Below, in pieces: positions 1,553 through 64,000 of a stretch of 64,000 nt of DNA (position 1 is the first letter of the stretch; every line of letters begins with the position of its first letter). Under the pieces are notes generated by a model. It ran no database searches. It worked only from the letters and a program-made list of their open reading frames with translations, and was not told the origin of the DNA. Source of the stretch: Bolinopsis microptera (taxonomy: Eukaryota > Ctenophora > Tentaculata > Lobata > Bolinopsidae). The translations under genes and the position numbers were made by a program. The DNA lies in NCBI RefSeq assembly GCF_026151205.1, contig NC_087075.1, positions 7,768,858-7,832,857 on the forward strand. The letters run 5' to 3'.

Positions 1553-1582
1553 TCTTCATGGGTCTTCAGAGGTGGTGCGTTA

Positions 1583-2482: not shown

Positions 2483-2661
2483 GTGTACACAGCATACAAG
2501 AGCTCTGTACTGTAGTAAGTGTACACAGCATACAAGGGCTCTGTACTGTAGTAAGTGTACACAGCATACAAGGGCTCTGTACTGTAGTAAGTGTACACAG
2601 CATACAAGGGCTCTGTACTGTAGTAAGTGTACACAGCATACAAGGGCTCTGTACTGTAGCC
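2483..2661. repeat. 36-bp minisatellite, 5 copies
   Basis: Five head-to-tail copies of a 36-bp unit start at 2483, 2519, 2555, 2591 and 2627. Each full unit junction contains GTAAGT, a perfect 5' splice-site hexamer, as CTGTA|GTAAGTG, and ACACAG, which resembles an acceptor. The length is a multiple of three, so both strands show repetitive open frames, which I treat as artefacts. The following sequence (2740-2775) is rich in GTACAT-type palindromic repeats. Confidence 0.9.
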
Positions 2662-3171
2662 AATACTCTGATCAGTCTTATCTAGGTGTTCATTATTCAA
2701 ATGCTACACAAGGACGCTCAATACATAACACATACAGTATACATTGTGTACATAGTACATTGTGTACATAGTACATACTCAGAACGGACACGAAGTTATG
2801 CATAGGAATGTGCGGTCAACATCCGAGCAATTATTGCAACACAAACTAATTAACTAACTACTAAGCTAATTAACAAGGACAACATTAGTAAACCACAACT
2901 GAGTTTATTCTGGCAAACAGCCAACACTTGTAAACTAACATACTGGAAGTGACACACAAACGAGTATCAATGTGTACGTAATGGGACTATACAATACTGG
3001 AGTGCTGTGGTAACGACATGGCATGATGATGTGATCTCGATATAGAGTTACACACTCACACTCACTTCACATTATAATGGGTCTCTAAACAAAACACCTG
3101 AACCTCGGCTCTAATCAGTCACATGATTATATGCATTATGCAATGTGAACATACATAATTAAAATGAGTGC
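2662..3171. other. Non-coding, nothing recognised
   Basis: AT-rich spacer between the 36-bp array and the MITE. No exon or transposon end was seen. Confidence 0.5.
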
Positions 3172-3174
3172 TAA

Positions 3175-3480
3175 CCCCCCAGTTCCATAGCCGGATATTA
3201 TGCAAAATTATTAGACGGAGGTCCATTTCCCGTAGATCATCTCCGGAGATGATTCTCCGGCTCCGTCTACTGTATTAGACGGAGATGAAGCTCTCCGGGA
3301 ATTTCTCGGAGATTGTAGCAGTTTGTGGCAGTTTCTTTGCACTTTTCTCCTCCTGTGAGAATCAACAAAATTACCGTAGATGGTCTCCGGATCAGGTCGT
3401 GGAACTGCAAACCGGAGAAATATCAGTAGACGATCTCCGTCTAATAATTTGGCATAATATCCGGCTATGGAACTGGGGGG
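3175..3480. mobile_element. PIF/Harbinger-like MITE, 306 bp
   Basis: Terminal inverted repeats of about 45 bp bound this element. The left end begins CCCCCCAGTTCCATAGCCGG and the right end is its reverse complement. It is flanked by the direct duplication TAA (3172-3174 and 3481-3483). A three-base TWA target duplication is characteristic of PIF/Harbinger transposons. The interior repeats CTCCG/CGGAG palindromic words, so much of the element could fold on itself. It carries no transposase; the 69-codon frame inside is incidental. Confidence 0.8.
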
Positions 3481-3483
3481 TAA

Positions 3484-4797
3484 GAACAGTTTAAACTCGA
3501 ATTATTGCAAGTCTGAGTTTCAGAGAAGAGTCCACACGACTACACGAGCTATACAAGTTAGAATCACGACAAAATCTAAATCCGTAAACGCCCAATTTGT
3601 ACAGAAACCAAACAGTGACAAGTTGTCACTGTTTGGTTACTGACATCACCAATCAGTCAGAAGTGAAATGCAACAAGTACCGATACTTTAATACGAATTC
3701 AATCACTCACGAATCAGAATCATCCTTTCAAAATCACAAGATCTCGTCTCCAAAAACCGATTAAGGAAAACACAAACAAGCCCGACCTGAAACTGAAATC
3801 TTAATTAAGATAAACTAAACTCTTAATTAAGATAAACTCTTAATTAACACAAACTAGCCGTCAAATTGCACACAGAGGCCTGATAACAACACACGCAGAG
3901 ATATTTTAAATTGTACAAGCTCAGATATTCTTGGTAAGGGAGTACAGTATCCTATAATACGAAGCCGGACAAAGACGCTGCTACTTTGAGGGAATCTGAT
4001 TGGATATGCAATATCAGCGTTAATAAGAATTATAATATGCATATTTTCCAGCAGGCAACTGACACAGAGGACTTTAAGTGAGTTCACACGATAAGTTGCC
4101 GTACTACGAGTAGCATAATATCAGAAGACTTCTATTATTATAGTTGTAGTGTCGTCATTCAAACCATGAGGTAATGTCAAGTAGGGGAACTGAAAACAGT
4201 GCTTCAAGACAAAAACATTACCTCCGAGCCAATCAGGAACGTGTCAAATTCCACAGAGTTCCAAAAGGAAAGCAGGTCCGGTAGGCGTCAAAAGGAAATG
4301 AAAGCTGCTGCTGCAGTGCTGCTAATTCATGTGACCAAACACAAGACTCTAGGGCATGAAATACCACACAATCTTTCAACAACAAATACACATACCAGCA
4401 CTATGACTAAACAACTAGTGGCTGTTCTCTGACTATGTGACGTTCTCTACAAGAAACGTCAAACATTACTGTGATATTACTGCTGTGACATTACTCGGTA
4501 GTTGTTTATTTGCTTGTAATTGTGTCAAGCTGGAGATGAAAGTGACAAGCATAAACAATCAAATCACAGAGAAGATAACAGTGTTTTTATTTAATTGACG
4601 CGTGTGTCAGTGACAGGGTTATATTATATTGCTAATTTGTGTATTACCATGTAACACTGTTGATATCTGGAGATTTGTGGAGATTACGGAGATTTGTGGA
4701 CTATTTAGTTGAGTGTGTCCCTAGCAACTTCCCTAGAAGTCCGGTACAGACGGTACTATTGTTATGATCCTGAACCTAAGTGGTTAGCTTGCTCTCT
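3484..4797. other. Non-coding with one perfect palindrome
   Basis: No convincing exon. A perfect inverted repeat lies at 3606-3638 (16-bp arms AACCAAACAGTGACAA around a single G). At 3800-3850 CTTAATTAAGATAAACT is tandemly repeated. Confidence 0.5.
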
Positions 4798-41600: not shown

Positions 41601-41703
41601 GATGTGCTTGAGTATCCAGAAATGACAGTGTGATTCTTTTCTGGACCTGTTCCACAATATATAGTAGTGTTGAAGTATTCCAAGATAGGCATTCTCTGAA
41701 TAC
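38633..41703 (-). CDS. Scaffold-like protein with repeated YEG(I/V/L) motifs
   Basis: Six phase-matched minus-strand exons: a 41703-41562 (GACAG/ GAAC|GTAAGT, phase 1); b 41424-41394 (GCAGAG/ CCCAG|GTATTG, phase 2); c 41185-41113 (AATAG/ CCAA|GTAAGC, phase 0); d 40954-39572 (TTTCAG/ GTTAAG|GTAAGT, phase 0); e 39428-39283 (GCTCAG/ ACAAA|GTAAGT, phase 2); f 38822-38633 (CTCCAG, stop TAA). Together about 654 residues; the start codon is upstream of exon a. Exon a is alpha-helical (TQAHLWLRLMYGLREHE). Exon d has about seven Y-E-G-[I/V/L] motifs separated by acidic linkers, then a proline-rich stretch (PPKPPPVPMRNP) and SPSLHGL, KSKSLADM serine motifs. Exons e and f are basic. Tyrosines of this type, plus a PxxP stretch, suggest a cytoplasmic docking protein for SH2 and SH3 domains. 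The family was not recognised. Confidence 0.65.
41283..41323. other. 12-bp-stem hairpin in an intron
   Basis: GTGAGGCATCTA and its reverse complement TAGATGCCTCAC are separated by about 14 bases. They lie in the intron between exons b and c of the scaffold gene. The stem is too short for a typical microRNA precursor. Confidence 0.6.
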
Positions 41704-42040
41704 CTGTCTCAACAAATTTTTTGTTTATTTATTTTTACTCTGAAAATTCTGCTCAAACAATTTTACCTACACACTTAACAATTTCAAACCAAATCACCCC
41801 ATCCAAACCCAGTTTGTCCTGTTGTTGTTAGTGTGTCTGACCTTTGAATGATTTATATATTTTTGAATACTTCAATCACTCTTTTGAAAGTTCTTGAAAA
41901 AATTCTATTCAATCATATTCCCACTTAACCCACCTCATATCACTCACAATGAACCGGCTGATGCTCTTCTCCTTTCAGGTGCAGGGGTCTGTCCAAGCTG
42001 GCCCCCTGGACTCCGGACATATCTCTGATATCATATCATC

Positions 42041-44122
42041 ATGGCTACTACCTCAAGTGCTAGTACCCAAAGGCGTTCCCCTAGACACACTCCTCCTCCT
42101 ACCAACCCAGGATCCAGAGCTAGCATGTCACCATCCGGCAGAGGAGCTACCTCCCAAAAGAAGAAACCTCTAGCAGACAACAAAGCCCTGCGCAGGAACA
42201 GCCCTAGCGCAATGGCCCAGAAAGCTGTGCTGGGTAAACGCCCATCAAAGTCACCCCAAGAACAACCAGAGACATCTGTTCTTAAACCTCCAGGTAATCT
42301 GGTTATTGAAAAGATCAGCCCAAACCTGATATCAGCTTTAGAATCATCGAACCTCAGAGAGAGCCCCAGAAGTCCAATGAGCCCTCTGTACAAGTCCTTT
42401 CCTCCATTCTCCCGTGCTGAAGAGTCTGCTGAAGAACTTGAAATCCAGGATAAACCTACAGTAAAACAACGGGCTTCAAAGAGTGATTGTCCTTGCCGAT
42501 CAACATCAGATGGTAAGGAATGGAAGTTCAAGTGTACCAGATGTTTTCAGCACTGGCATGCTTCCTGTTGCAATCTCAAGGGTGCTAACAACATTCAGCA
42601 CGATACACCTCTTGAAGCTTCTCTGAATATTATTCTCTCAGAATGGCTATGTCCATGGTGTTTCGATACATCATTCCCCAGACCAGGCTCCAGCATGTCA
42701 GCCAAGATGGACAACAACCTAAAGAGCTCTGTAGACTACAGCCAGAACATACAGGCTATATCAGATGCTATTTCTAATGCTGTTGGTAACAGTATGCCTA
42801 CTGTGGAGATTGTATCCCTGGAGACAAGACTGAAGAAGCTGAGTCAAGAGATTCATGAATTTCAGCAGTCCAGAAGTCCATCTGAAGCACCACCTGCTAC
42901 AGAAATCCCCCTCCCTAAATGCACAGAACCTCCAGTGTGTGATTACCTGGTCGATGTGCTAAGTGCTGAGATCCTCAAAGAAGTTACAGAGTTTCTCCTG
43001 GAGAGCCAAGCTAGTAATAAGTTCATCCCGAAGAATGGAAGACAGGTCCTCAAGTTTGGGGAAGACTACTCTTATACTGGTGATTCAGACCCACCCCTAT
43101 CCCCCACAATCCCAGCACCCCTTGCCTCAGCCATAGACGCAGTTACATCAAAGTGCAGACTGACCCATAAGCCCAACTCCATCCTAATAAACTACTACCC
43201 TCCCTCAGTTGATACCACCACTGGTAGCAAGCTCCCTTTTCACTCTGACGATGAGTCTGAGATTATTGCTAACTCAGAAATTGCTACTATCAGCATAGGC
43301 GACGTCAGGAAGGTGTGCTTTAAGTGCATCCATGAGACCGGAAACGAAGCCTCAACTGAGTATGTTCATAGTGTGAGTCCAGAATCTAACTCAGTGTATG
43401 TGATGACACGATCGTCACAAGCCTGGTATCGTCACGGTATTGATGAAACAGGTCCTGCTGAAACTCAGTCTTCTGTGCAGACAGGAAGGTTCTCCATCAC
43501 ACTGAGAACTGTGAGCAAACAGTTTAGCCGGAGCTGCATCATCATGGGCGACTCTAACACCAAGCCCATCAAGTTCGGTGTCGGTACTGGAACCCTTGGA
43601 CAGTCCTTCCCAAGTGAACGTGTTAAAGCCAACAAGGTCAGTGCAATAGACCCTAAGCTCTGCATTGGTTATAGCAACGTCATCTTAGTTTGTGGGACCA
43701 ACGATCTACGAGTTGAAAATGTGCAGTCACCTGGTGATAAACACCAGCTGGTAGACATTCTCCACCTGAAAATCCAGCAGATCCAGAAACTGTGCCCTAA
43801 GGCGAAGTTGTTTGTCACAGCAGTTTTACCGTCTAGACTCCCTAAGATGAATAAAAACATTATGGCATTCAACAGCTTGGTTGATGAAATGTTGTACTCT
43901 AGCTTTAACCAGAATGTATGGCACCTTGGTGTTGGCCACTTTTTCGACGGTAAAGGGTTGCTTGCTATGAAACTCACGAGAAATGGTGATGAAATCCATC
44001 TCGGAGAGCTTGGTATTGCTAAATTTGTGAGATGTCTGAAACAGTGGGTGTATGTGAGGGAGAGACAGGAGAGAGTAAGACAAAGGAAGGCCACCCGACC
44101 AGTGGGAGTTTATCCCACTTAG
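42041..44122 (+). CDS. LINE ORF1: PHD-like finger, AlkB dioxygenase, SGNH esterase
   Basis: 693 residues. 1-140: disordered, Ser/Pro/Lys-rich. 150-207: PHD-like zinc finger (C150, C152, C165, C168, H171, C176, then WLCPWC at 202-207). About 250-275: short helical, possibly coiled region. 330-492: AlkB-like 2-oxoglutarate/Fe(II) dioxygenase with ILINYYPPS, the iron triad H401-x-D403 (HSDDE) and H465 (WYRHGID), and the RFSITLRTV strand carrying the 2-oxoglutarate-binding Arg. 498-670: SGNH hydrolase with block I GDS (S505), CGTND (551-555) and DEIH (D650, H653). SGNH esterase domains are known in CR1-type ORF1 proteins; AlkB enzymes oxidatively remove methyl groups from nucleic-acid bases. All predicted catalytic residues are present. 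It probably forms the RNP with the element's RNA. Confidence 0.85.
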   Translation: MATTSSASTQRRSPRHTPPPTNPGSRASMSPSGRGATSQKKKPLADNKALRRNSPSAMAQKAVLGKRPSKSPQEQPETSVLKPPGNLVIEKISPNLISALESSNLRESPRSPMSPLYKSFPPFSRAEESAEELEIQDKPTVKQRASKSDCPCRSTSDGKEWKFKCTRCFQHWHASCCNLKGANNIQHDTPLEASLNIILSEWLCPWCFDTSFPRPGSSMSAKMDNNLKSSVDYSQNIQAISDAISNAVGNSMPTVEIVSLETRLKKLSQEIHEFQQSRSPSEAPPATEIPLPKCTEPPVCDYLVDVLSAEILKEVTEFLLESQASNKFIPKNGRQVLKFGEDYSYTGDSDPPLSPTIPAPLASAIDAVTSKCRLTHKPNSILINYYPPSVDTTTGSKLPFHSDDESEIIANSEIATISIGDVRKVCFKCIHETGNEASTEYVHSVSPESNSVYVMTRSSQAWYRHGIDETGPAETQSSVQTGRFSITLRTVSKQFSRSCIIMGDSNTKPIKFGVGTGTLGQSFPSERVKANKVSAIDPKLCIGYSNVILVCGTNDLRVENVQSPGDKHQLVDILHLKIQQIQKLCPKAKLFVTAVLPSRLPKMNKNIMAFNSLVDEMLYSSFNQNVWHLGVGHFFDGKGLLAMKLTRNGDEIHLGELGIAKFVRCLKQWVYVRERQERVRQRKATRPVGVYPT

Positions 44123-44128
44123 TTTATC

Positions 44129-47100
44129 ATGATTATGAAACTTATTAAAGATGTGTGCGACCCCTGTAGTAAATACATTAATATTGGCCAGCCACTCTTA
44201 GAATGTGAAAATTGCAGCAAAGTTGTTCATACTAAGTGCTTCAGATCCGCGAAATTTACAAGCAAAAACGGTCTATGGATGTGTAGTGATTGCTGTAGTA
44301 CAATAGAAGATAGGTATTGCCCATTTCCAAGCAGCCAAAGATATGATGATTCAGATAAATTCTATGATACAAACAACCAGGAAGATGTCACCATAGCTAA
44401 ATTCTCTTCAATACTTGAAGACTGTAAGCGTTACACAAAACAAGAACTAGCAAACTCAATCAGCAAACTTTTTCCTGAGAAAAATAAAAATTCTGCTTAT
44501 CTGCCCGCTCTGTTTTGCAATATAGATGGGTTTGCTAGTAATTTTGACAGCTTTTTAATAGAACATAAGACCCTCCCGTGTAATTTTGATGTCATTGGAT
44601 TGGCTGAGACCAACATCGATCCAAGCCAACAAGGCTTATACCAAATCCCCTCCTATACAACATTTTGTCAAGTACCATTCCCTGATAAGAAAAAAGGAAC
44701 AGGAGTATCCTTATATGTCTCTGATCGCCTGAATGCTGTAGTAATCGAAAATCTATCTCACTGTACAAAAGATATTGAGTGCTTATTTGTTGAAATTACT
44801 CTTAGCTCGGGTGATAAACTGACATATGGGGTTGCTTATCGTCCTCCAAATGGCTGTAGTGAGACCTTTTGTCAAACTCTTGAGGATATATCTAAGCAGT
44901 TGGCTGGTAAAAAGTTCCATATTCTTGGCGATTTTAACTCTAACCTCCTCAATGTACAAACCTCCAGCCAGTTATTTGAGGACACGTTACTTCGTAACAA
45001 TATGTATCCTACTATATCACTTGCTACCCACTTCCGTCCTAACTGTAAAAACTCATGTATTGACAATATCCTCACATCAGAGATAGATCATGTACTTCTC
45101 TCCGGTGTATTGAATGATAGGATTGGTGACCATGCCTTTATATTCACCTTCACGTCAATTCCTACCGAAAACAGTACTGAAAAACTTAAACATGTTCGCT
45201 ACTATGATTATTCAAGTTCCAAACTCACTAATTTTGTTAATGAACTCGAGGTGAAGGTGAATGACTTGACTCCCTCGGTAAACTTCAATGAGTTCTTGGA
45301 CTGCTTCAATGAAACACTTGATAAACACTGTAAGCTTGATGTACCAAAAGTTACCAAAAGGACTCCCAAACTCAACCCGTGGATTACCGATGGAATCATT
45401 GTCTCAGTTGAAAGAAAACATGAACTCTGTAGAGACTGGTCAAGCACTGTAACAAATAGAAACCCTGAGGGTAATGTATTGCTCTATAAAGTCTTCAGTG
45501 ACTACCGAAGAATGCTTAAAAGTATTATCAAGGTCGCCAAACGATCGTACTACTGCAATGAAATCCATAAAAATATAGAAAACAGCAAAAAAACGTGGCA
45601 GATAATCAATGAGCTCAGGGGCAAGAAAAAGAAGCAAACTAAGCCTCCCTTTATCATAAACAACGAACGAATCATGAATCGTAGAGTCATAGCCAATGGA
45701 TTCAACTCTTACTTTGTTTCTATTGCCCCTAAGCTCAATGAAACACTTAGTAGCAGTGAGGCCTCTGGTTTACCAATTCTCCCTATAAAAACATTCTATG
45801 ATTTCCTTGGAAAGACTAATGAAAAATCGATTATGTTAGAAGACTGTACACCTTATGAGATAACGGAAATAATAAAAGGATTCGAAAATGGAAAAGCAAG
45901 TGATATTCCTGTTAGTGTAATCAAAAGATCATCTCACGTAATTACACCGATCCTTAGTCGATACATCAACATCTTAATGTCTAATGGCACGTTCCCCGAC
46001 GTTTTAAAGACTGGTAGAATAACTCCTGTATTTAAGAAGGGAAACCCTGAAGAGATAGAAAACTACCGCCCAATCTCTACTCTCTCTATATTTGGTAAAA
46101 TCTTTGAAAAGATCATTTACTCAAGAATATATTCGTTTGCTAGCTCACAGGGTATAATATCTAAAACACAATTTGGCTTCAGGCAGTCACACTCTACTTC
46201 ACATGCAGTTAATCACTCAGTAAACCTTATAACTGAATCTCTAAAACTTAAGCATCATGTCTTAGGCATATTCATAGACCTTAGCAAAGCTTTTGATACA
46301 ATAGATCATGGTACATTACTTGTCAAATTACAGGGCTATGGGATACGTGGGGTGGCAAATGATCTTATAAAAAGTTACTTAACAAATAGATCACAATATA
46401 CTGAAGTTGTTGGTGAGAAATCTGACGCCTTGAAAATACAGTTTGGAGTCCCTCAGGGTTCGATTCTTGGACCTCTCTTATTTCTCCTATATATTAATGA
46501 TATCGCCAACAGCTCCAGTTTGGGATCATTTGTCACCTTCGCTGATGACACCAATATATTTGTGACTGGGAAATCTAAAAAGGAGGCATATATGCGTGGT
46601 AATTCTCTTTTAGCTAGTTTATATTCCTACATGCGAGCAAACAAACTCCATGTCAACTTGTCTAAATGCTGTTTCATTCACTTTAAACCAGCATCGTCCT
46701 CCCAGACTGACAATAATTCTGAATATACTCTAACCATTGATAACTTTCCAATAAAACAAGTTGCATCTGCTAAGTTTCTGGGAGTCGTCATCGATGAAAA
46801 GCTAACCTGGGAAGAACATATAAAATCACTTAGGCGTTCTCTCAGCCATGCAACATCAACTCTCTGCCGCCTACGCTGCTCCCTCCCAGATTTCTTACAC
46901 CGCCAGTTGTATTACACTCTATTTGAATCACACCTCTCCTATTGTATCACGGTTTGGGGTGGGGCAGCCAAAACTCGTATAAGTTCTGTATTCAAAGCAC
47001 AAAAATATTGTCTCAGGGTACTGTTTGGCGACAGGGAGGCATACCTAGATAAATTTAAGACCTGTGCTCGTGCTCGACCGTTTGGCAACCAAAATCTGAA

Positions 47101-47524
47101 CAAAAAATTTTTCTTGAAAGAGCACACGAAACCTTTGTTCAAGGAACACGGAATACTTGCCGTCCAAAACCTGTACACTTACCATTGTTTCCTTGAGCTC
47201 TATAAAATCATGAAATTCCGTGCTCCGATTTCCCTCCATGAAAATTTCACCTGCTCAAGTAGGAAACCCACCCTTATACTAAGCCAAGCAGACCCCCCTG
47301 ACAACTTCAATAGCAGAACGACTCGTATTTGGAACGTAATTGTGCCTAAGCTTGGTATACGTGACTACTGTCTAAGTGTGGCCTGCCTGAAGTCTAGGAT
47401 GAAGCAATCACTGCTCGTCAACCAGCATAACCATGCTGATCTTGATTGGACAAACAAAGATTTCGAATGCTCTAATCTAAATTTTGACATTAAGTCTACC
47501 CTAGGGTCCACACATCCAAAATGA
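44129..47524 (+). CDS. LINE ORF2: PHD finger, endonuclease, reverse transcriptase
   Basis: 1,131 residues, starting at the ATG six bases after the ORF1 stop (TAGTTTATCATGATTATG; the first ATG is used in this model). 8-55: a second PHD-like finger (CDPCSKY, CENCSKVVHTKC, WMCSDCC). About 128-345: APE-type endonuclease (CNIDG, GLAETNID, LGDFNSNLL, IGDHAFIF). About 600-850: reverse transcriptase (NYRPISTLSIFGKIFEK, IFIDLSKAFDTIDH, GVPQGSILGPLL, FADDTN at about 804-809). The KFLGVVIDEKLTWEEH thumb and a C-terminal tail with Cys follow. It nicks target DNA and copies the element RNA by target-primed reverse transcription. The close ORF spacing suggests translation by termination-reinitiation. Confidence 0.92.
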   Translation: MIMKLIKDVCDPCSKYINIGQPLLECENCSKVVHTKCFRSAKFTSKNGLWMCSDCCSTIEDRYCPFPSSQRYDDSDKFYDTNNQEDVTIAKFSSILEDCKRYTKQELANSISKLFPEKNKNSAYLPALFCNIDGFASNFDSFLIEHKTLPCNFDVIGLAETNIDPSQQGLYQIPSYTTFCQVPFPDKKKGTGVSLYVSDRLNAVVIENLSHCTKDIECLFVEITLSSGDKLTYGVAYRPPNGCSETFCQTLEDISKQLAGKKFHILGDFNSNLLNVQTSSQLFEDTLLRNNMYPTISLATHFRPNCKNSCIDNILTSEIDHVLLSGVLNDRIGDHAFIFTFTSIPTENSTEKLKHVRYYDYSSSKLTNFVNELEVKVNDLTPSVNFNEFLDCFNETLDKHCKLDVPKVTKRTPKLNPWITDGIIVSVERKHELCRDWSSTVTNRNPEGNVLLYKVFSDYRRMLKSIIKVAKRSYYCNEIHKNIENSKKTWQIINELRGKKKKQTKPPFIINNERIMNRRVIANGFNSYFVSIAPKLNETLSSSEASGLPILPIKTFYDFLGKTNEKSIMLEDCTPYEITEIIKGFENGKASDIPVSVIKRSSHVITPILSRYINILMSNGTFPDVLKTGRITPVFKKGNPEEIENYRPISTLSIFGKIFEKIIYSRIYSFASSQGIISKTQFGFRQSHSTSHAVNHSVNLITESLKLKHHVLGIFIDLSKAFDTIDHGTLLVKLQGYGIRGVANDLIKSYLTNRSQYTEVVGEKSDALKIQFGVPQGSILGPLLFLLYINDIANSSSLGSFVTFADDTNIFVTGKSKKEAYMRGNSLLASLYSYMRANKLHVNLSKCCFIHFKPASSSQTDNNSEYTLTIDNFPIKQVASAKFLGVVIDEKLTWEEHIKSLRRSLSHATSTLCRLRCSLPDFLHRQLYYTLFESHLSYCITVWGGAAKTRISSVFKAQKYCLRVLFGDREAYLDKFKTCARARPFGNQNLNKKFFLKEHTKPLFKEHGILAVQNLYTYHCFLELYKIMKFRAPISLHENFTCSSRKPTLILSQADPPDNFNSRTTRIWNVIVPKLGIRDYCLSVACLKSRMKQSLLVNQHNHADLDWTNKDFECSNLNFDIKSTLGSTHPK

Positions 47525-47710
47525 TTATCTTGAAATTGAAAATTAACTGGGTGTGCATTTTCCTTTGTCTTACTAACGTGAGCGCAGTGTAGTGAGAAAG
47601 TGTTTTTAACAGATTTATTATTAGACTTAGGATTATGATTTTTAATATATTACATTGATATAAGATTTATTTTTGATAGGTACTTAATAAAGTTGATGAA
47701 TTTCCCTCCC

Positions 47711-48619
47711 TATTAAAATTTTAAACCCATTTAGTGAAAATTGATAAACGAAGATCTAGATATTGATACATATTATAACCAACATTGCTTATATTCTGCC
47801 TTGTAAACAAAGAGCAAATCTTCTTAATGCCTTCTTCCTGTCCTAAAACTAAAACTTCATCCTATTAAAGTAAAGGCCAGTTGTTACCACAAGCTATTAT
47901 ACCGTCCCTCTCAAAAACATGCCTCAGCCTCCATCAAAAACAATTTTAGTTTTCAGTCCTTCTAGTTTCCAAAAATCTACCGAGCTAGTGTTCTGGTGTG
48001 CACAAAAGCCCCTAAGCCCGTGCATTCCTTGCCCCCGCTAGCTGCCAGTCCTTGACAAACTTCCAATAGCAAAGATCAACTAGTCATTTACAAATTGAGC
48101 ACTATACAATTTTAATTGTTTTAAATATTTGACTTTGTAAAATGAGCTAAAACATTGATTTATTAGTTTCATTGATTTATTAGTTTCATTGTTAACCATA
48201 TAAAGCAGCAACACCCACTATGAACATTGCATACTCATATAATAGGAGTGCAAATAGTAGGTCAAGGCTGCTCCTGGAAGTTCATATCTCTCCGTCCTAA
48301 ACCAATAGGGTTGAACCAGGAAACTACTGGAGTCTGTTGCCGATGTATATGATCAATATGAATATAGTATATAACTTGGGAGTATCTTTCTCCAGCAGTC
48401 TAATGTATCCTTGAAAATTTTCTTATGCCCTAAAACTAGTTAAATGTCTTCAAAAAATAACCTTGTTGGCATCAAATCTCTTCTCAGATCCAAAATTTCC
48501 TCCCACTCAGACTGCCAAACAAACATGTTTCTCAATGTGGGGATGCAAATGTTATTTAAGTTGTCCACCCAATCAAATTATGTCCACCCAACCAAAATTG
48601 TTTAATAATGATAACAATG
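47711..48619. other. Non-coding, nothing recognised
   Basis: Flank between the LINE and the tandem-repeat element. A short duplication ATTGATTTATTAGTTTC occurs at about 48153-48188. No coding frame or transposon ends. Confidence 0.5.
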
Positions 48620-48625
48620 TATAAT

Positions 48626-50757
48626 GGGGGGGGTGTCATGTCCGTCTATGTCCGCCTATGTCCTGTCCTTTTTGGATTCTATGAGACAACGGACGTGTTT
48701 TTTGGGACATTGGCGGACACGGACGGACATTGGCGGACTCGGACGGACATTGGCGGACTCGGACGGACATTGGCGGACCCGGACGGACATTGGCGGACTT
48801 GGATGGACATTGGCGGACTTAGATGGACATTGGTGGACATTAGCGGACATTGGTGGACATTAGCGGACAAAGATTTTGAGGACTGAAGAGTACTGAAGAG
48901 TACTGAGGAGGATGGCTGAGAAGGATGGCTGAGGAGGATGGCTGAGGAGGATGACTGAGGAGGATGACTGAGGAGGATGACTGAGAGGGAGGAGAAGGAT
49001 CAGGAAGACCCAGGAGGAGGAGGAGGAGGAGGACCCAGAAGGAGGACCTAGGAGGAGGAGGAGAACTGAGGAGGAGGACTCAGGAGGAGGACTGAGGAGG
49101 ACTGAGAAGGAGGAGGACTGAGAAGGAGGAGGACTGAGGAGGATGGCTGAGGAGGATGGCTGAGGAGGATGACTGAGAGGGAGGAGGAGGAAGAGGAGGA
49201 AGAAGACTGAGGAGGAGGAGGAGAAGGACTGAGGAGGAGAAGGAGGACCCAGGCGGAGGAGGACCAAGGAGGAGGAGGACCCAGAAGGAGGACCCAGGAA
49301 AAGGCCCCAGGAGGAGGAGGAGGACTGGGTAGGAGGAGAACTGTCGAGGACTGATGAGGAGGACTGAGGACGAGGAGGAAGAGTAGGAGGAGGACTGAGG
49401 AGGGGAGGAAGAAGAGGACTGGGGAGGATCAGGAAGACCCAGGAGGACCCAGGAGGAGGAGGAGGAGGACCCAGGAGGAGGAGGAGGACTGAGGAGGACT
49501 GAGGAGGAGGACTGACGATGACTGAGAAGGAGGAGGACTGAGGAGTACTGAGGAGGATGGCTGAGGAGGATGGCTGGGGAGGATGGCTGAGGAGGATGAC
49601 TGAGGAGGATGACTGAGAGGGAGGAGGAGGAGGACTCAGGAGGAGGACTCAGAAGGAAGAGGAGGAGGACTCAGGAGGAGGACTCAGGAGGAGGACTTAG
49701 GAGAAATGAGAAGGAGGACTGAGGAGAACTGAGGAGGAGGATGAGGAGGACTGAATAGGAGGAGGAGAAGGAGGGGGACTGGGAGAGGACTGGGGAGGAG
49801 GAGGACTGATGAGAAGGATGGGGAGGAGGACCCAGGAGGAGGAGGACTGAGGACCGAGGAGGAAGAGGAGGAGGATGAAGAGGAGGAGGAGGACCCAGGA
49901 GGAGGAGGACTGAGGAGGACTGAGGAGGACTGAGGAGGATGGCTGAGGAGGATGACTGAGAGGGAAGAGGAGGAGGAGGAGGAGGAGGAGGACTGAGGAG
50001 GACTGAGAAGGAGGAGGAGGAGGAGGAGGACTGAATAGGAGGAGGAGGAGAGGGACTGGGGGAGGACTGAGGAGGAGGAATGAGGATGGAGGACTGAGGA
50101 GAAGGAGAAGGAGAAGGACTGAGGAGGAGGACTGAGGAGGACTGAGGAGGATGGCTGAGGAGGATGACTGAGAGGGAAGAGGAGGAGGAGGAGGAGGAGG
50201 ACTGAGGAGGACTGAGAAGGAGGAGGAGGAGGATGGAGGACTGAGGAGAAGGATGAGGAGGAGGACCCAGGAGGAGGACTCAGGAGGAGCAGGAGGAGGA
50301 TGAAGAGGAGGAGGAGGACTGTTGAGGACTGATGATGAGGACGAGGAGGAGGAGTAGGAGGAGGACTGAGGAGGGGAGGAGTAAGAGGACTGAGGAAGAT
50401 CAGGAAGACCCAGGGGGAGGAGGAGGAAGAGTAGGAGGATGAAGCATCTAAATTTCCATTTTTGTCCGTTTTTGTCCATTTTTGTCCGGTTTTGTTCGCT
50501 CTACTTTTTGTCCGTTTTGAAAATATAGGGTACCGAACGGACAAAAAACATGATCCCCCTATAACAGCAAAAATTGAACATTTTATTTAGCAATCTAGGT
50601 GTCCATTAATGTCCGCCTATGTCCGCCTATGTCCGTCTATGTCCGCCTATGTCCGTCTATGTCCGCCTATGTCCGCCTATGTCCGCCTATGTCAGCCTAT
50701 GTCCTGTCCTTTTTGGATTCTATGAGACAAGCGGACATAGACCCCCCCCCCCCCCCC
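48626..50757. mobile_element. 2.1-kb element made of tandem repeats
   Basis: Flanked by the direct repeat TATAAT (48620-48625 and 50758-50763). It begins with a G run and ends with a C run, each followed inward by ATGTCCG words in opposite orientation, so the ends form inverted repeats. The interior has four parts: GTCCGCCTATGTCC-type repeats plus TTTTTGGATTCTATGAGACA present at both ends in the same orientation; an 18-bp GGACATTGGCGGACTCGG array (48705-48870); about 1.5 kb of GAGGA/CTGAGGAGGATGG purine-rich repeats (48885-50440); and TTTTTGTCCGT repeats (50455-50540). There are no coding domains. The class is unclear; a non-autonomous DNA transposon with internal satellites is my best reading. 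Confidence 0.55.
48885..50440. repeat. Polypurine (GAGGA)n minisatellite, 1.5 kb
   Basis: The plus strand is almost pure purine, with recurring words GAGGAGGACTGAGGAGGA and GAGGATGGCTGAGGAGGATG. Long minus-strand open frames of Ser, Pro and Leu result from the composition. Mirror-repeat polypurine DNA of this length can form triplex (H-DNA) structures. Confidence 0.9.
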
Positions 50758-56103: not shown

Positions 56104-56485
56104 GACCTCAAAAATAGTACAGGGTGGCCCATAAGTGACTACCCACACGCAACCTCTTAATAACTCACGTAATTCGTCTCCAAATTGCACCAAAATTTCA
56201 GAGATTATAGATATGGGTCAAACTTAGATTTTCTGAAAGTTTTGTAAGCCACGCCCAATTACAGTGGGCGTGGCGTGACACTCCCTCTTTTTCACTATTG
56301 TCTTCATAAAATGAGAACGCTTTAAGCTAAGAACTCAAAATTTTTTGCACACATTTGGCTTGATAATTGAAAACCTTTCCCAAAGTTTCAAGTTCATTGG
56401 TTAAAATATGGCTAAGTTATGACCATTTCAAAACTCATCGGATACGTGATCCGAGCACTCAGTCAGTGATCTCGTCACTTGGGTA

Positions 56486-57169
56486 ATGGCCTGTTTGGCT
56501 CACATGCACCGCTTGATTGGTTGCAGCCTGCTTATGGGCCGGCCTATACAGCTGACTGCACCTAAAACGCTATCACACGAATTTATGGTGGTGTCACCAT
56601 TTCAGGGCTTGTTAGCCCTGCTAGTCACAGGTTCCTTACAATCAATAAAAAGGAATGAACCATCCATTGAATCATCGAAAATGGTTCACTATCCTCCCTT
56701 TACTGCAGAACAACGATTGTTCGTCTACCTGAAGAAAGAAAATGGGGAGTTCTACCCTCAGATTAAACGACAATTTCAGATGAAATTCAACCGACCACCC
56801 CCTTGCCGGAAAAGCTGCTTTGACATTCATCACAAGATCAAGTTTACGTTTTCTGCACACGATCGGCGAAGAGTCGGCAGAAGACGAACTGCAAGGACTG
56901 TAGAAAACATCACGATGGTTGTTGGTGACGTGATGGACACACCTAAGATTGGCACCCGGAAACGAGCTCCTGCCTTAGACATCAGCAGAACCCTTCAGCG
57001 AATCCTAAAGCAAGACCTTTCTAACCGGGCCTACCGAATCACAAAGAAACACAAACTTTTGGACCGTGATTTCCAATCGAGGATAGATTTCGCCAACACA
57101 TTCCTGTCCAAGCAGAATGTGGATCCCTACTTTGAGGACGAAATCTGGTACAGCGACAAGGCCATATAA
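56486..57169 (+). pseudogene. Truncated mariner-like transposase, left arm
   Basis: 227 codons. From about residue 67 the sequence follows the mariner/Tc transposase N-terminus: FTAEQRLFVYLKKE, FNRPPPCR, RRRVGRRRTARTVENI, ISRTLQRILKQDL, RAYRITKKHKLL, then FANTFL and IWYSDKA with the first catalytic Asp (about 224). The frame then stops. The next bases in another frame still resemble the expected continuation (GYVNSQNAIHW), so a small deletion caused a frameshift. The second and third catalytic residues are absent. It could only bind DNA, if made at all. Confidence 0.8.
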
Positions 57170-57332
57170 ACGGATATGTCAACTCCCAGAATGCAATTCA
57201 CTGGGGCTCTAGTCACTTATGGGCCACCCCAGATGCAGATCGTGACCTTTTCAGGAAAAGCCGTTCTCTCCACCACTTCATCCGGTCTAGTAGAGCCCCA
57301 GTGAATTGCATTCTGGGAGTTGACATATCCGT

Positions 57333-58016
57333 TTATATGGCCTTGTCGCTGTACCAGATTTCGTCCTCAAAGTAGGGATCCACATTCTGCTTGGACAGGA
57401 ATGTGTTGGCGAAATCTATCCTCGATTGGAAATCACGGTCCAAAAGTTTGTGTTTCTTTGTGATTCGGTAGGCCCGGTTAGAAAGGTCTTGCTTTAGGAT
57501 TCGCTGAAGGGTTCTGCTGATGTCTAAGGCAGGAGCTCGTTTCCGGGTGCCAATCTTAGGTGTGTCCATCACGTCACCAACAACCATCGTGATGTTTTCT
57601 ACAGTCCTTGCAGTTCGTCTTCTGCCGACTCTTCGCCGATCGTGTGCAGAAAACGTAAACTTGATCTTGTGATGAATGTCAAAGCAGCTTTTCCGGCAAG
57701 GGGGTGGTCGGTTGAATTTCATCTGAAATTGTCGTTTAATCTGAGGGTAGAACTCCCCATTTTCTTTCTTCAGGTAGACGAACAATCGTTGTTCTGCAGT
57801 AAAGGGAGGATAGTGAACCATTTTCGATGATTCAATGGATGGTTCATTCCTTTTTATTGATTGTAAGGAACCTGTGACTAGCAGGGCTAACAAGCCCTGA
57901 AATGGTGACACCACCATAAATTCGTGTGATAGCGTTTTAGGTGCAGTCAGCTGTATAGGCCGGCCCATAAGCAGGCTGCAACCAATCAAGCGGTGCATGT
58001 GAGCCAAACAGGCCAT
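57333..58016 (-). pseudogene. Truncated mariner-like transposase, right arm
   Basis: The inverted duplicate of the frame at 56486-57169, with the same 227-residue product and the same stop. The lack of differences between the two arms points to a recent origin or ongoing gene conversion. Confidence 0.8.
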
Positions 58017-58800
58017 TACCCAAGTGACGAGATCACTGACTGAGTGCTCGGATCACGTATCCGATGAGTTTTGAAATGGTCATAACTTAGCCATATTTTA
58101 ACCAATGAACTTGAAACTTTGGGAAAGGTTTTCAATTATCAAGCCAAATGTGTGCAAAAAATTTTGAGTTCTTAGCTTAAAGCGTTCTCATTTTATGAAG
58201 ACAATAGTGAAAAAGAGGGAGTGTCACGCCACGCCCACTGTAATTGGGCGTGGCTTACAAAACTTTCAGAAAATCTAAGTTTGACCCATATCTATAATCT
58301 CTGAAATTTTGGTGCAATTTGGAGACGAATTACGTGAGTTATTAAGAGGTTGCGTGTGGGTAGTCACTTATGGGCCACCCTGTATTATATTAAACATTTC
58401 TATTTTATCCCTACACATCTGTAAATAACTAGAATTGTGTAACCTTAAATTATTTCAGAATTATAACTATTGTGAATTCAATAAAATAACTATCACTTTT
58501 GTATCCTTGTATCCTTGTATCCTTGTATCCTAAGAGCCCAGATTTCCACTCAAATACTGGCAAGTGCATTTAAATGCTATAGGACATTAAAATAAGATTG
58601 AACCATACAAACTCGATTTATCTATTTTTCTAAAACTAGCATTATATAACATTTCTAAATTATCCCTACACACTTGTAAATAATTAGAATTGTGTAACTT
58701 AAATTATTTCAGAATTACAACTATTGTGTACTCAATAAAGTAATTATCACTTTTGTATCCTTGTATCCTTGTATCCTTTGTATCCTTGTATCCCCCGGCT

Positions 58801-60522: not shown

Positions 60523-60783
60523 TTTGAGGACCCCCAGTGGGAACTAATGCCTCGGTAAATGTAACGACCATTACAGGTTGTATGTCAATGTAAATGGTTG
60601 TTGCACGATAAAGTTATCTTAAAGACATCCTAAGGACTATCAGACATCGGTTTTTAAAGCAGTTTACCCCCATCTATCACCTAAAGATTATCAGACATCA
60701 CTTATCCTTATCCTCCGGAGTGCTACAAAGGTACTGTAATCATTAACTAAATTTCGAACAGTAGCATCTTTTTGTGATAAACT

Positions 60784-62436
60784 ATGTCTAGAATACCAGT
60801 TGGCTCAAGACATTACAATCTGAGATATCGAGGGAATTCTGTTAAATTCCCCAGCAACGGCTCTTGTCCTACTGATAAATGTTCAAATTGTTTAACTCTA
60901 TTAAGAGAGAATGATAGTCTTCGTCGGCAAATTTCTTTTCTCTATAAACAATTATCAGAAAGTGACAGTGCACTCAAAGTTCCCCTCAGCGATGGTTCAC
61001 TTATCCCTGTGTTGCCCCAGGTACCTGATCACTGTGAACAGTCTATCAATGTTCCCCTCAGTAATAGGTCATCCTCGCATCTTGTTTCTGAGTTAACCCA
61101 AGAGCTATCCAAATTAGCAGAAGACAGTGAACATTCAGCAGAAATTATCAATTTGGAAAATCCCAAACACTCTGTAAATGGTGACAATGATGTGACCAAC
61201 TCTATCAATCCATACCAAGATCTGAGTCGAGGAGTTTTTCAGTTTGTTGACACTGCCAAGTTAGATATAGAAACCCACTATACTCATAAGTTTGAGAATA
61301 GGGCAGTTGCATATTACGGGGACTTTCCCTACGCTTACAATGGAGGCTTTCATAACACAAGGCCAGTAGCAGACAATCCATACCTAAAGTCTATTTTAGA
61401 ACGCTTACGCTCACAGTTCCCAAAATTGAAATTCAATAGTGCTATGATTACCAAGTATAGAAATGGTCAGCAAGGAATTCCCTTTCACTCGGATGATGAG
61501 AGGTCAATTTCACCAGGCTCCATGATCTCCACCATCTCTTTAGGGGCTACTAGAGTCCTAAGCTTCAGATCCAAACTTAGAGCTCATATTGCTGACCTCA
61601 CCCTCTCCCATGGTGACATAATGAATATGACCAGACAATCCCAGACCAGCTTTGAACACAGCCTCATCCAGGACAAGTCTGAAACCATGAGAATAAGCAT
61701 TACTCTGCGCCTAATTGATGGCAGCGCAACCTTATCTACTCTGTCTGATGTTTCCAGTCAAGTTAAGAACACTGAACCCTCGGCCCCTAAGACTAGATCA
61801 ATAGAACATTCTGATAAATCTTTGTGTGTCTACATTAGCTCTAGTATGTTCTCCAAATTAGAGGGAGAAAAGCTATCGTCCAAACATCATGAGGCACATG
61901 TATTCAGCTACCCTGGTGCCACAGCCAATGCAATCAATGAACGGTTTCAATCAGATGTAAGAAAAGACACTCTTAATACCAATAATGTGAAAAGCATTGT
62001 ACTTATGTGTGGTACAAATGACGTGGACTCTATCCTGAACAGCCCTCGCAACATGAGGACTAAACTTCTGTGCCCTGATAGTTTTTCTGGTGATGCTAGA
62101 GCTCTTGACTTTACAAACAATTGTATTGAAAAACTTGTACTTTTCCTTCACAAGTGGGCACCTGGAGCTGATATTAAAATTGTTAACTTATTACCTCGGG
62201 AGAGTTTCTCCAGAAACAAGGTTATAACTGATATCAATGAGTGTATATCAAATCTGCAAAGAAAATACACCTATGTAAAACTGCTCTCAACCGAGACAAA
62301 TCGTTTCTTGTTTAGTGATAAGAAAGGCTTTAGAAAATCGTCATTTTTTAGTAGTTATGGAGAGGATAATGTCCATCTCAATGATTATGGCATAGTTAAA
62401 TTAGCAAGGCACTTGAAGTATCATGCACACCATTAG
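60784..62436 (+). CDS. LINE ORF1: AlkB dioxygenase and SGNH domain
   Basis: 550 residues. 28-36: a CxxxxCxxC cluster. 36-60: predicted coiled coil (LTLLRENDSLRRQISFLYKQ), as used for ORF1 trimerisation. 150-312: AlkB-like 2-oxoglutarate/Fe(II) dioxygenase with MITKYRNGQQGIPFHSDDER (H235-x-D237), the third iron ligand H292 (SFEHSL) and MRISITLRLI (R303, R309). 345-548: SGNH-type fold with CGTND (409-413) and EDNVH (D528, H531). The block I GDS is replaced by ISSSM, so esterase activity is doubtful although the dioxygenase residues are intact. The architecture parallels the ORF1 at 42041-44122, but the sequences are very divergent. Confidence 0.82.
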   Translation: MSRIPVGSRHYNLRYRGNSVKFPSNGSCPTDKCSNCLTLLRENDSLRRQISFLYKQLSESDSALKVPLSDGSLIPVLPQVPDHCEQSINVPLSNRSSSHLVSELTQELSKLAEDSEHSAEIINLENPKHSVNGDNDVTNSINPYQDLSRGVFQFVDTAKLDIETHYTHKFENRAVAYYGDFPYAYNGGFHNTRPVADNPYLKSILERLRSQFPKLKFNSAMITKYRNGQQGIPFHSDDERSISPGSMISTISLGATRVLSFRSKLRAHIADLTLSHGDIMNMTRQSQTSFEHSLIQDKSETMRISITLRLIDGSATLSTLSDVSSQVKNTEPSAPKTRSIEHSDKSLCVYISSSMFSKLEGEKLSSKHHEAHVFSYPGATANAINERFQSDVRKDTLNTNNVKSIVLMCGTNDVDSILNSPRNMRTKLLCPDSFSGDARALDFTNNCIEKLVLFLHKWAPGADIKIVNLLPRESFSRNKVITDINECISNLQRKYTYVKLLSTETNRFLFSDKKGFRKSSFFSSYGEDNVHLNDYGIVKLARHLKYHAHH

Positions 62437-62591
62437 AATACTGCTGAATACTGACATAACACTCCTACCATCAGTTTTATTTTTACAGTACGACATCCAG
62501 ACAAATACAACCTGTTTTTATTCTGTTTTTTAGTTTAAACACAACTTTTCAACTTTTATTCATTCCATTGTGAATTAATAAGATTCACAAG
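62437..62591 (+). other. LINE inter-ORF spacer
   Basis: A 155-bp AT-rich spacer between ORF1 and ORF2, unlike the 6-base junction of the 42-kb LINE. ORF2 translation must therefore start by a different route in the two elements. Confidence 0.6.
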
Positions 62592-64000
62592 ATGACAAAT
62601 TTTAATAATGCAGCTGATAGGTTTCACAACCTCTGCATTGGTCATTGTAACATTCAAGGAGGGCTTCTCAATTTAGCTAAAAGTAATGAACTTTCCCAAC
62701 TTATTAGAGATCATAAATTAGACATACTTTCCCTAAATGAGATGAATCTTAATGATACTATTGACACAGACACCATAAATATTCCTTCCTCCTTCAACCT
62801 TATGCGATGCGACAGGCCAAACAGTTCTAGGGGTGGTTGTGGCTTAATGATAAACAAAAAACTAGCTTACACAGAATTAGTTATGGATAGTAAGCTTGAT
62901 AACATTGAAGCATTATGGGTGAAGCTTAAGAATAGCAAGATCAATGTTTGCTGCTTCTATCGCTCTGGAAATTATTGCAGTGTTGATAACTTTATTGAAT
63001 ACATTCATTTTTGCATGAAAAAATTGAATGGGAAAAAGGTTATCTGGATTGGGGATATAAACATTGACCAGAATAATATCTCATCCACCCAGTACAAAAA
63101 ATTAGATATGACCTTGAGATGTTACAATCTAGTTCAAACCATTCAAGGGATAACTAGAGTTGCTAAACGTGGAGACAATGTTACCCAGACTACTATTGAT
63201 GTAATATTCACTAACTGTTATGCAGATTTTGTTCAATCTTCTGTTCTTGATGAACGTATTGGAGATCATCAAGCCATTATGTGTGAGATAGATTGTAAAG
63301 TACCTATAGCTCCTAAATTTGAGAAGGTTGAAATTAGAAATCATTGTAAACGTAATGTTAAACAATTCTTAGACTATCTAGATACCTGTTCTGATTACAG
63401 TCCACTATTGGAAAGTACAGATGTTGAAGCTATCACTGCTGGCCTTTGTCATCATATTGAACAGGCATATGCAACCTTCTCCCCTTGCAAGACCATAGAA
63501 AGGCATGAAAAGTTCATACATAAACCTTCTACTGAACTTTTAAATGCCATTAATCATACACATTTTCTTCTAAAGAAATTCCGTAAAAAGAAGGATAAGA
63601 GAGACAATGGAAATTGCAATAAATGTGGTACATGTAGCAAATGTATAAAGTGTAATGAGGCCTGGGATTGCTACAAGATTCAGAGAAATATTAGAAATAA
63701 ATTAGCTAAAACCTGCAAAAAGGCTAATGTAATCGATGATCTACAAGTTAAAAGTGCCAAGAATGATCTTAAAGGGATATGGAAAACTGTCAAACTGGCA
63801 TCAAATATGACCCCTGGTACAACTAATTGTCAAACTATCAATGAGAATGATCCTGAGCTATTTAACTTTCATTTTGCAAATGTTGGATCAAGATTACAAA
63901 ATCAGGCCCCCAATATTGAAAGAGTTAGTTTTACTGATTTTTTACCTCCTAGAACTTCTAATATCTCATTTGATAGATTCCAAGAAATAAATGAAACTGA
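62592..64000 (+). CDS. LINE ORF2, N-terminal part (endonuclease)
   Basis: Open from ATG 62592 to the window end (469 codons so far), 155 bp after ORF1. Residues about 12-235 form an APE-type endonuclease: GHCNIQGG, SLNEMNLND (catalytic Glu), GGCGLMINKK, WIGDINIDQ, IDVIFTN and IGDHQAI. The linker has a run of six Cys at about 341-361 (NGNCNKCGTCSKCIKCNEAWDC), unusual between endonuclease and reverse transcriptase. The part before the reverse transcriptase follows (DDLQVKSAKNDLKGIWKTVK). The reverse transcriptase itself lies beyond the window. Confidence 0.85.
   Translation, partial: MTNFNNAADRFHNLCIGHCNIQGGLLNLAKSNELSQLIRDHKLDILSLNEMNLNDTIDTDTINIPSSFNLMRCDRPNSSRGGCGLMINKKLAYTELVMDSKLDNIEALWVKLKNSKINVCCFYRSGNYCSVDNFIEYIHFCMKKLNGKKVIWIGDINIDQNNISSTQYKKLDMTLRCYNLVQTIQGITRVAKRGDNVTQTTIDVIFTNCYADFVQSSVLDERIGDHQAIMCEIDCKVPIAPKFEKVEIRNHCKRNVKQFLDYLDTCSDYSPLLESTDVEAITAGLCHHIEQAYATFSPCKTIERHEKFIHKPSTELLNAINHTHFLLKKFRKKKDKRDNGNCNKCGTCSKCIKCNEAWDCYKIQRNIRNKLAKTCKKANVIDDLQVKSAKNDLKGIWKTVKLASNMTPGTTNCQTINENDPELFNFHFANVGSRLQNQAPNIERVSFTDFLPPRTSNISFDRFQEINET

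Follow-up and report, generated by a model that had tools for sequence, protein, structure and literature searches.

The 64,000-nt stretch of DNA analyzed here (the window), positions 7,768,858 to 7,832,857 of contig NC_087075.1 of the ctenophore Bolinopsis microptera, carries a long interspersed nuclear element (LINE) whose first open reading frame (ORF1) is the main subject of this report. A preliminary description of the stretch had claimed that this ORF1 combines a PHD finger, an AlkB dioxygenase and an SGNH esterase in an undamaged frame with all catalytic residues in place. The claim is borne out by the 693-residue frame itself, by Pfam and profile searches and by conservation in 31 related ORF1s. 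In the same genome, an intact ALKBH2/3-like domain with all of its residues for iron and 2-oxoglutarate (2OG), joined to an SGNH esterase, is found in deeply diverged LINEs as well as in Helitrons. The features of the window are collected in Table 1.

The ORF1 protein and the element that encodes it

Pfam recognized the AlkB family PF13532 at residues 340-489 of the window ORF1 (E 5.6e-19; bit score 69.6, cut-off 31.2). A profile built from 12 AlkB domains of transposable elements (TEs; profile A1) found human ALKBH3 (6.8e-28), ALKBH2 (9e-25), ALKBH8 (8e-12) and E. coli AlkB (6e-11) in the PDB. When the window sequence was used singly, ALKBH8 came first (2e-4) and the remaining AlkBs scored 0.3-0.5, among chance matches. 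A scan with NCBIfam gave no match in the window ORF1 and a weak AlkB match (E 0.0032, far below cut-off) in the ORF1 of a second LINE in the window, and a search of viral contigs with the complete window ORF1 returned no relative.

The structure of the AlkB domain was predicted by AlphaFold from a 25-row alignment of the two window domains, three bacterial AlkBs and twenty AlkBs of IMG/VR contigs; copies or near-copies (L084, L087, L090 and L093) had been dropped from the original 27 microbial sequences. The predicted model, with a local distance difference test score (pLDDT) of 85.1 and a predicted template modeling score (pTM) of 0.84, adopts the ALKBH2/3 fold with its double-stranded beta-helix. 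Foldseek matched it best to human ALKBH2 (E 1.2e-11; template modeling (TM) score 0.72), with TM scores of up to 0.74 for ALKBH3, and in BFVD it matched AlkBs of giant viruses, phages and RNA viruses. The fold check suggested in the preliminary description thus did not refute the domain. Since 23 of the 25 rows are bacterial or viral-contig AlkBs, the fold model lends support to the assignment but is not an independent proof of it, and we regard the sequence profile as the stronger evidence. A prediction from the two window domains by themselves (A2) was poor (pLDDT 47.5) and was discarded.

The other two domains of ORF1 were recognized mainly through relatives. The SGNH match of the window ORF1 taken singly was under the Pfam cut-off (E 0.13). 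A profile of six relatives (A3) found SGNH hydrolases in the PDB, among them 2hsj (E 4.3e-8) and 4c1b (E 4.3e-6), the latter being the ORF1 esterase of the zebrafish LINE ZfL2-1 (PMC3905857, PMC4120745). The Cys/His pattern of the PHD-like finger was read by eye, and PF00628 matched five ORF1 relatives (L018, L019, L007, L014 and L012) with E values of 2.4e-4 to 6.7e-3.

The LINE copy in the window is 97.4-99.7% identical to other copies in the genome, its 5' side being common to three of them and its 3' side to two; the 3' stretch compared for the third copy had no match to the 3' side of the window LINE. Upstream of the 5' end of the window copy, three other copies still match one another over about 215 bp, which indicates that the window copy is 5' truncated. 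It therefore displays the non-LTR (long terminal repeat) retrotransposon hallmark of 5' truncation with a common 3' end. No target-site duplication, as a repeat of at least 5 nt, was found at the ends of this copy, and two other copies have A-rich end matches of up to 7 nt only. Three copies (L051, L053 and L055) have a longer 5' region; close to its beginning lies an inverted repeat, imperfect (78%) and about 51 bp long, part of which is absent from the window copy. As expected of LINEs with an esterase ORF1, ORF2 holds an APE-type endonuclease and a reverse transcriptase (RT), although the endonuclease match is weak (Exo_endo_phos_2, E 0.013, below the Pfam cut-off). At 44120-44131 the two ORFs share a frame and are separated by a single TAG with an ATG 6 nt on, an arrangement that suggests termination-reinitiation or readthrough.

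Table 1. Features of the two LINEs of the window (positions are those of the window).
Feature	Position	Strand	Basis or remark
LINE copy containing the ORF1 of interest	41657..48192 (bounds about)	+	matches to other copies
ORF1, 693 aa + TAG: N-terminal region without recognized domain, PHD-like finger, linker, AlkB, SGNH	42041..44122	+	undamaged open frame, Pfam
PHD-like zinc finger, residues 149-210	42485..42670	+	PF23004 E 0.05 here
AlkB 2OG-Fe(II) dioxygenase domain, residues 336-492	43046..43516	+	Pfam, profile, AlphaFold, Foldseek
Fe ligands H401 (43241-43243) and D403 (43247-43249), codons CAC TCT GAC	43241..43249	+	sequence, conservation
Third Fe ligand H465	43433..43435	+	sequence, conservation
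RFSITLR; TE variant, RxSxTxR or RxSxSxR, of the AlkB motif RxNxTxR	43487..43507	+	R483 and R489 predicted from homology to bind 2OG
SGNH esterase domain, residues 498-660; S505, N554, D650, H653	43532..44020	+	profile A3, conservation
ORF2 (PHD, endonuclease, reverse transcriptase)	44129..47524	+	Pfam and sequence; first ATG 6 nt past ORF1 stop, same frame
PHD finger, N-terminus of ORF2	44156..44293	+	PF00628 E 1.8e-4, 21.9 bits, just below cut-off 24
Reverse transcriptase domain of ORF2	46037..46792	+	RVT_1 E 2.2e-35
Element 3' end: 17-bp unit twice in tandem, without poly(A)	48158..48191	+	same end in two other copies
ORF1 of second, distant LINE family: AlkB and SGNH	60781..62436	+	PF13532 E 4.1e-19; Lipase_GDSL_2 E 1.8e-4, below cut-off
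AlkB domain of second LINE	61330..61710	+	genome listing G000:C4:7830187-7830567
SGNH domain of second LINE	61879..62391	+	Pfam
ORF2 of second LINE	62574..63998	+	open frame, continues beyond window

Conservation of the AlkB domain and purifying selection

The genome searched comprises 264.65 Mb in 232 contigs, with about 258 Mb in contigs C1-C13 of 15-26 Mb each. A ctenophore origin agrees with the best PDB matches of its locus L065, which are the ML032222a iGluR entries (best E 1.2e-61; ML is the Mnemiopsis prefix), although this match looks distant by eye and another locus, L064, had its best matches in vertebrate kainate receptors. The window ORF1 had 65 matches in this genome. Full-length matches at 98-100% identity numbered 15 including the window copy, and 13 of these are stop-free and lie on eight large contigs; the other matches are shorter or come from families down to 45% identity. 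For the study of conservation, the window ORF1 was combined with 30 loci chosen from its 64 other matches. Because all the loci are listed without stops, and two full-length copies with a stop were left out, these 31 ORF1s are a sample of intact copies.

The AlkB residues H401, D403, E405, H465, R483, S485 and R489 are invariant in 31/31 ORF1s, as are the SGNH residues S505, N554 and H653; D650 is present in 30 of the 31. Just 12 of 166 columns are invariant among 23 diverged TE AlkBs. The iron ligands H, D and H, the two arginines and the glutamate that follows HxD are all among these columns; the chance of these six named positions all falling within the 12 columns is 3.5e-8, the domain ends having been set by a motif that itself holds some of the invariant residues (none of the 26 ORFs failed or was dropped). 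Conservation of the iron ligands among copies, proposed earlier as a check, was thus found in all 31 ORF1s and in 23/23 TE AlkBs. At the asparagine of RxNxT, all 23 TE rows have serine and all five host or human ALKBH2/3 rows have asparagine. Serine is also found at this position in two bacterial AlkBs (L068 and L069) and one from a viral contig (L076), so that RxSxT is a mark of the TE proteins and no proof of their origin.

Substitutions between copies, likewise suggested as a check, demonstrate that the AlkB domain is under strong purifying selection. Between L032 and L036 it has accumulated 57.5 synonymous changes over 103 sites and 25.5 nonsynonymous changes over 347, which gives a nonsynonymous-to-synonymous rate ratio (omega) of 0.075 (bootstrap 0.033-0.133; Fisher p 6e-25). 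The other four pairs gave 0.079 (L033/L037), 0.106 (L036/L041), 0.057 (L035/L048) and 0.188 (L043/L044). The corresponding values for SGNH were 0.111 for L032/L036 and 0.136, 0.109, 0.056 and 0.149 for the other pairs in the same order. When groups B1 and B2 were pooled, the AlkB ratio was the lowest at 0.082, compared with 0.175 for SGNH and 0.203 for PHD, the SGNH ratio of B2 being inflated because that group includes the mosaic L049, which is excluded from the five omega pairs. Synonymous sites were saturated in more distant group pairs.

The LINE L049, at 156-4340 of its locus, has a B-type AlkB and an SGNH domain 46% identical to that of the window, as against 70% in the B copy L036, and parts of its ORF1 and ORF2 are joined in one 1395-aa frame. 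An exchange between ORF1 and RT, suspected from the distant RT of L049, was rejected: in L099, a true B copy, the RT shares 81% identity with that of the window, and the mosaicism is therefore limited to L049.

AlkB and SGNH in other LINEs and in Helitrons

The second LINE of the window belongs to a distant family, and its ORF1 likewise has AlkB and SGNH, with no PHD recognized by Pfam; a copy of this family, L017, has an ORF2 of 1003 aa with an RT match. A genome search with PF13532 gave 151 matches from the 150 scored of 587 candidates, and all that were listed but one were stop-free. From this list 19 places were drawn, about one per class of ORF length. Three of them (L001-L003) are host-like; in a tree they fall with human ALKBH2 or, with less certainty, with ALKBH3. 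The remaining 16 are transposons, namely 13 LINEs (L004, L007-L009 and L011-L019) and three Helitrons. An RT match lies downstream in 11 of the 13 LINEs, that of L014 possibly belonging to another element; L011 and L019 were called LINEs from the likeness of their ORF1s to those of L008/L009 and L018, respectively. The 959-aa RT frame at L014 has just 28% in common with the RT of the window; it probably belongs to another LINE inserted downstream and was excluded from the RT comparisons.

SGNH accompanies AlkB in all 13 of these LINE copies. The Pfam E value for SGNH is at or below 0.01 in eight (L004, L007, L008 and L013-L017) and 0.06-0.11 in three (L009, L011 and L018); in L012 the domain was recognized solely from its motif and alignment, and L019 retains the first part of the domain, after which the frame breaks. 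Seven further places were picked from the SGNH list for ORF lengths absent from the AlkB list, and six of these (L057-L062) have an AlkB motif in the same ORF. Pfam places AlkB above the cut-off in L058 and L060; for L057 and L062, which have weak matches of a related dioxygenase family, and for L059 and L061, which have no Pfam dioxygenase match, AlkB was assigned from motif and alignment. Both searches scored the best candidates and few rows were examined, so the counts are a lower bound rather than a census. The search for further ORF1s of this kind, which the preliminary description had recommended, turned up AlkB with SGNH in 13 of 13 LINEs drawn from one list and in six of seven places drawn from the other.

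In L057-L062, whose AlkB+SGNH ORF1s differ in length, ORF2 starts with two to three transmembrane-like hydrophobic segments; among seven other ORF2s tested, only that of L063 does so. Taken with an esterase that binds lipid, such starts hint at membrane-bound retrotransposition. At L003, an ORF for a host-like ALKBH3 relative and one for an SGNH hydrolase lie at 955-1842 and 2554-3411, 0.7 kb apart on the same strand. With the same two domains as the transposons, this pair is perhaps a relic or a source.

The three Helitrons of the AlkB list (L005, L006 and L010) all have SGNH, which in L010 lies in a neighboring ORF; L010 was called a Helitron by AlkB and SGNH similarity alone. In L005 and L006 one long frame holds SGNH (residues ~9-177), AlkB (428-560 and 488-620, respectively) and then DUF6570. 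Later in the same frame, L005 matches Helitron_like_N (Rep; E 2.8e-22), while for L006 the matches to Helitron_like_N (E 5.6e-23) and PIF1 (E 4e-22) lie in the adjoining stretch L050, where that frame continues; the genome listing gives a frame of 3388 aa, open throughout, at this place.

The relationship of these domains was examined in a tree with 23 TE rows, the three host-like AlkBs, the two human proteins ALKBH2 and ALKBH3, and 24 AlkBs from bacteria or viral contigs. The AlkBs of 18 LINEs, including that of the window, and of the three Helitrons form one clade (support 100/99), with 31 rows outside it. In this tree the window AlkB is within neither the ALKBH2 nor the ALKBH3 group and hence is not placed as an orthologue of either. 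The Helitron AlkBs are nested among LINE rows; a tree with the LINEs alone together was not rejected in a 28-row set by the approximately unbiased (AU) test (p-AU 0.075; 0.116 when the L008 type is left out). In the best tree found, the L008/L011 type, which is divergent, is not part of the clade but sits beside a long viral branch. A tree uniting all 23 TE rows has a likelihood 7.3 higher than that best tree, and a single origin of all TE AlkBs is possible on these sequences. Three RT groups ({551, 646, 611}, {592, 593} and the 455-521-aa group) reappear in the AlkB tree, which argues that the association of AlkB with LINEs is old; for the RT group of the window itself, the AlkB tree does not resolve the positions of L012 and L018.

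Two other features of the window lie outside these LINEs. At 56111-57211 and 57291-58391 there is a perfect inverted repeat with 1101-nt arms at 100% identity and 79 nt between them; both arms hold an identical 239-aa ORF that by eye is like a Tc1/mariner transposase, and the repeat is a palindromic element or else an artefact of the assembly. Short tandem repeats follow one another over a long distance at 48620-50600, a segment of strong GC skew whose minus strand has long frames of low complexity.

Proposed role of the AlkB domain and comparison with known systems

LINEs and Helitrons both go through a single-stranded intermediate. AlkBs of the ALKBH2/3 type act on methylated bases, with single strands preferred, and methyl groups on the Watson-Crick face, such as those of 1-methyladenosine (m1A) and 3-methylcytidine (m3C), block reverse transcriptases. 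Its ALKBH2/3-like family and the conservation of its active site lead us to infer that the domain demethylates nucleic acid of the element. The explanation we lean towards is that the ORF1 protein serves as a structural component of the LINE ribonucleoprotein particle and contains a working AlkB demethylase, which would keep the single-stranded nucleic acid of the element free of methylated bases. AlkB would bind the RNA template and first-strand cDNA in LINEs, and the displaced single-stranded DNA in Helitrons, and would oxidatively strip methyl groups from their bases. The targets may be marks such as m1A, m3C and N6-methyladenine in RNA (m6A) or DNA (6mA), acting as RT blocks or silencing flags, or chemical alkylation damage. 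Template and cDNA would then be copyable, so that copying could reach full length and the product perhaps be unmarked. The esterase may attach the particle to membranes, a role proposed for that of ZfL2-1, the PHD fingers may read chromatin, and AlkB may supply the RNA binding otherwise lacking in esterase ORF1s.

Several observations weigh against this explanation. In the window ORF1 the PF13532 match is confined to positions 54-194 of a profile of 194, so the N-terminal part of the family, where the substrate contacts of AlkB lie, is not recognized there. Y386, which we take by homology to lie near 2OG, is replaced by F in 11/31 related ORF1s and by F or M in 2/23 TE rows. Judged by sequence, RxSxT fits the AlkB family, and substrate choice may be altered. 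L063 from the SGNH list has an SGNH ORF1 in which the AlkB motif was not found, which indicates that AlkB is dispensable for some LINE of this genome. Constraint on SGNH is about that on AlkB in three of the five omega pairs and slightly stronger in L043/L044, so that AlkB does not stand out in every comparison. For the youngest 13 copies (group A) the AlkB ratio is 1.44 (pN 0.0058, pS 0.0040), a value that says nothing either way because the changes are too few.

We considered whether the enzyme might serve plain damage repair, reversing only 1-methyladenine (1-meA) and 3-methylcytosine (3-meC) alkylation in the particle, without any host mark or arms race being involved. Its closest solved relatives by profile and fold, ALKBH3 and ALKBH2, are repair enzymes, and AlkBs of plant and other RNA viruses, seen among the fold matches, offer a parallel. 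Repair alone, however, leaves unexplained why AlkB is common in the LINEs of this animal and unlisted for the 448 Jockey-superfamily elements in Table 1 of PMC4120745, and we find it rather unlikely as the whole explanation.

The domain could instead act on chromatin, with the PHD fingers reading histones and AlkB stripping 6mA, or some other base mark, from the genomic DNA of the target site or of resident copies, which would open them to insertion or transcription. PHD fingers are present in both ORFs of the window element, and Helitrons, which have no RNA template, hold the same AlkB domain; fungal transposons carry dioxygenases of the TET/JBP type. However, Pfam recognized no ORF1 PHD in many other AlkB-SGNH copies, such as the second window LINE (win551), L004, L008, L013, L015, L016 and L057-L062, so AlkB is kept there without a PHD in ORF1, and most AlkB enzymes favor single strands. 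This possibility is thus unlikely in our view.

AlkB domains bind single-stranded RNA and DNA, and the fold might have been retained for nucleic-acid binding, with catalysis incidental. The esterase ORF1 proteins in Repbase are without an RNA recognition motif (RRM) or other structural RNA-binding domain, and their mode of RNA binding is left open (PMC3905857). A domain used for binding only would nonetheless be expected to lose its Fe and 2OG residues somewhere, whereas these are among the sole 12 invariant columns in 23/23 LINE and Helitron rows, and we judge this alternative improbable. Transposons do capture host exons, but chance capture, or an assembly artefact, with no role for the domain is hardly credible given 13 stop-free full-length copies on eight large contigs, strong constraint and a TE-specific clade.

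A demethylase that protects the element's own nucleic acid thus remains our preferred reading. We further suggest, more tentatively, that the transposons own an AlkB lineage, distinct from the sampled cellular AlkBs and shared by ctenophore LINEs and Helitrons and by now a regular component of their equipment, that may serve both as a methylation eraser in an arms race with the host and as the missing nucleic-acid-binding module. If the demethylase reading is correct, non-LTR retrotransposons and Helitrons carry a base demethylase, and do so in many families rather than as a rarity. The question of how esterase-type ORF1 proteins hold RNA, raised in PMC3905857, would be answered, and the animal would be predicted to mark or damage transposon nucleic acid at positions that AlkB can repair. 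As the AlkB domain is small and the enzyme family well assayed, the claim is directly testable.

The preliminary description had called the combination of AlkB and SGNH in one protein unusual. With respect to the literature this stands, in that no report of AlkB in LINE ORF1s was found among the best-ranked matches in open-access articles without preprints, a scope that does not establish priority; within this genome it does not, since the combination is present in many LINE families and in Helitrons too. For AlkB in Helitrons the literature says little, as the 25 matches listed of 2,640 included no Helitron paper. Among the nearest described systems are the esterase (type IV) ORF1s of CR1/L2-lineage LINEs such as ZfL2-1, which the window element resembles in its C-terminal SGNH domain and in the endonuclease and RT of ORF2, without our claiming a clade name for it. 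The described esterase ORF1s consist of a coiled coil and an esterase, whereas the window ORF1 includes AlkB. AlkB is not a term in PMC3905857, and no AlkB domain appears in Table 1 of PMC4120745. Esterase ORF1s were limited to two vertebrate groups in the latter survey, and retroelement esterases are known from cnidarians and sponges too (PMC3905857).

Esterases have also been associated with other mobile elements. The texim Helitrons of fish (PMC4021074) are similar to those described here in the association with an SGNH hydrolase, but there the Helitron lies beside the texim gene or in its last intron, whereas here SGNH and AlkB are inside the Rep/Hel frame; the terms AlkB and dioxygenase are absent from that paper. 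The GDSL-esterase ORF3 of LTR elements in bdelloid rotifers (PMC5408684) likewise illustrates that the esterase is common to several types of retroelement, and the term AlkB is absent from that paper.

With regard to AlkB, the window protein is like ALKBH2 and ALKBH3, its nearest solved structures, in fold, in HxD..H and R..R and in HxDDE, while the TE proteins differ from them by serine for the asparagine of RxNxT and 21 of the 23 TE rows group together in a separate clade. An AlkB-family 2OG dioxygenase encoded by a retrotransposon is known from Ty3/Gypsy elements of the orchid Phalaenopsis, where the AlkB ORF binds RNA and demethylates m6A in vitro (PMC9289625). The orchid elements are LTR retrotransposons in which AlkB is an extra ORF, recent and limited to one lineage, whereas in the ctenophore it lies within ORF1 of non-LTR elements, is fused to an esterase and is found in many diverged families.

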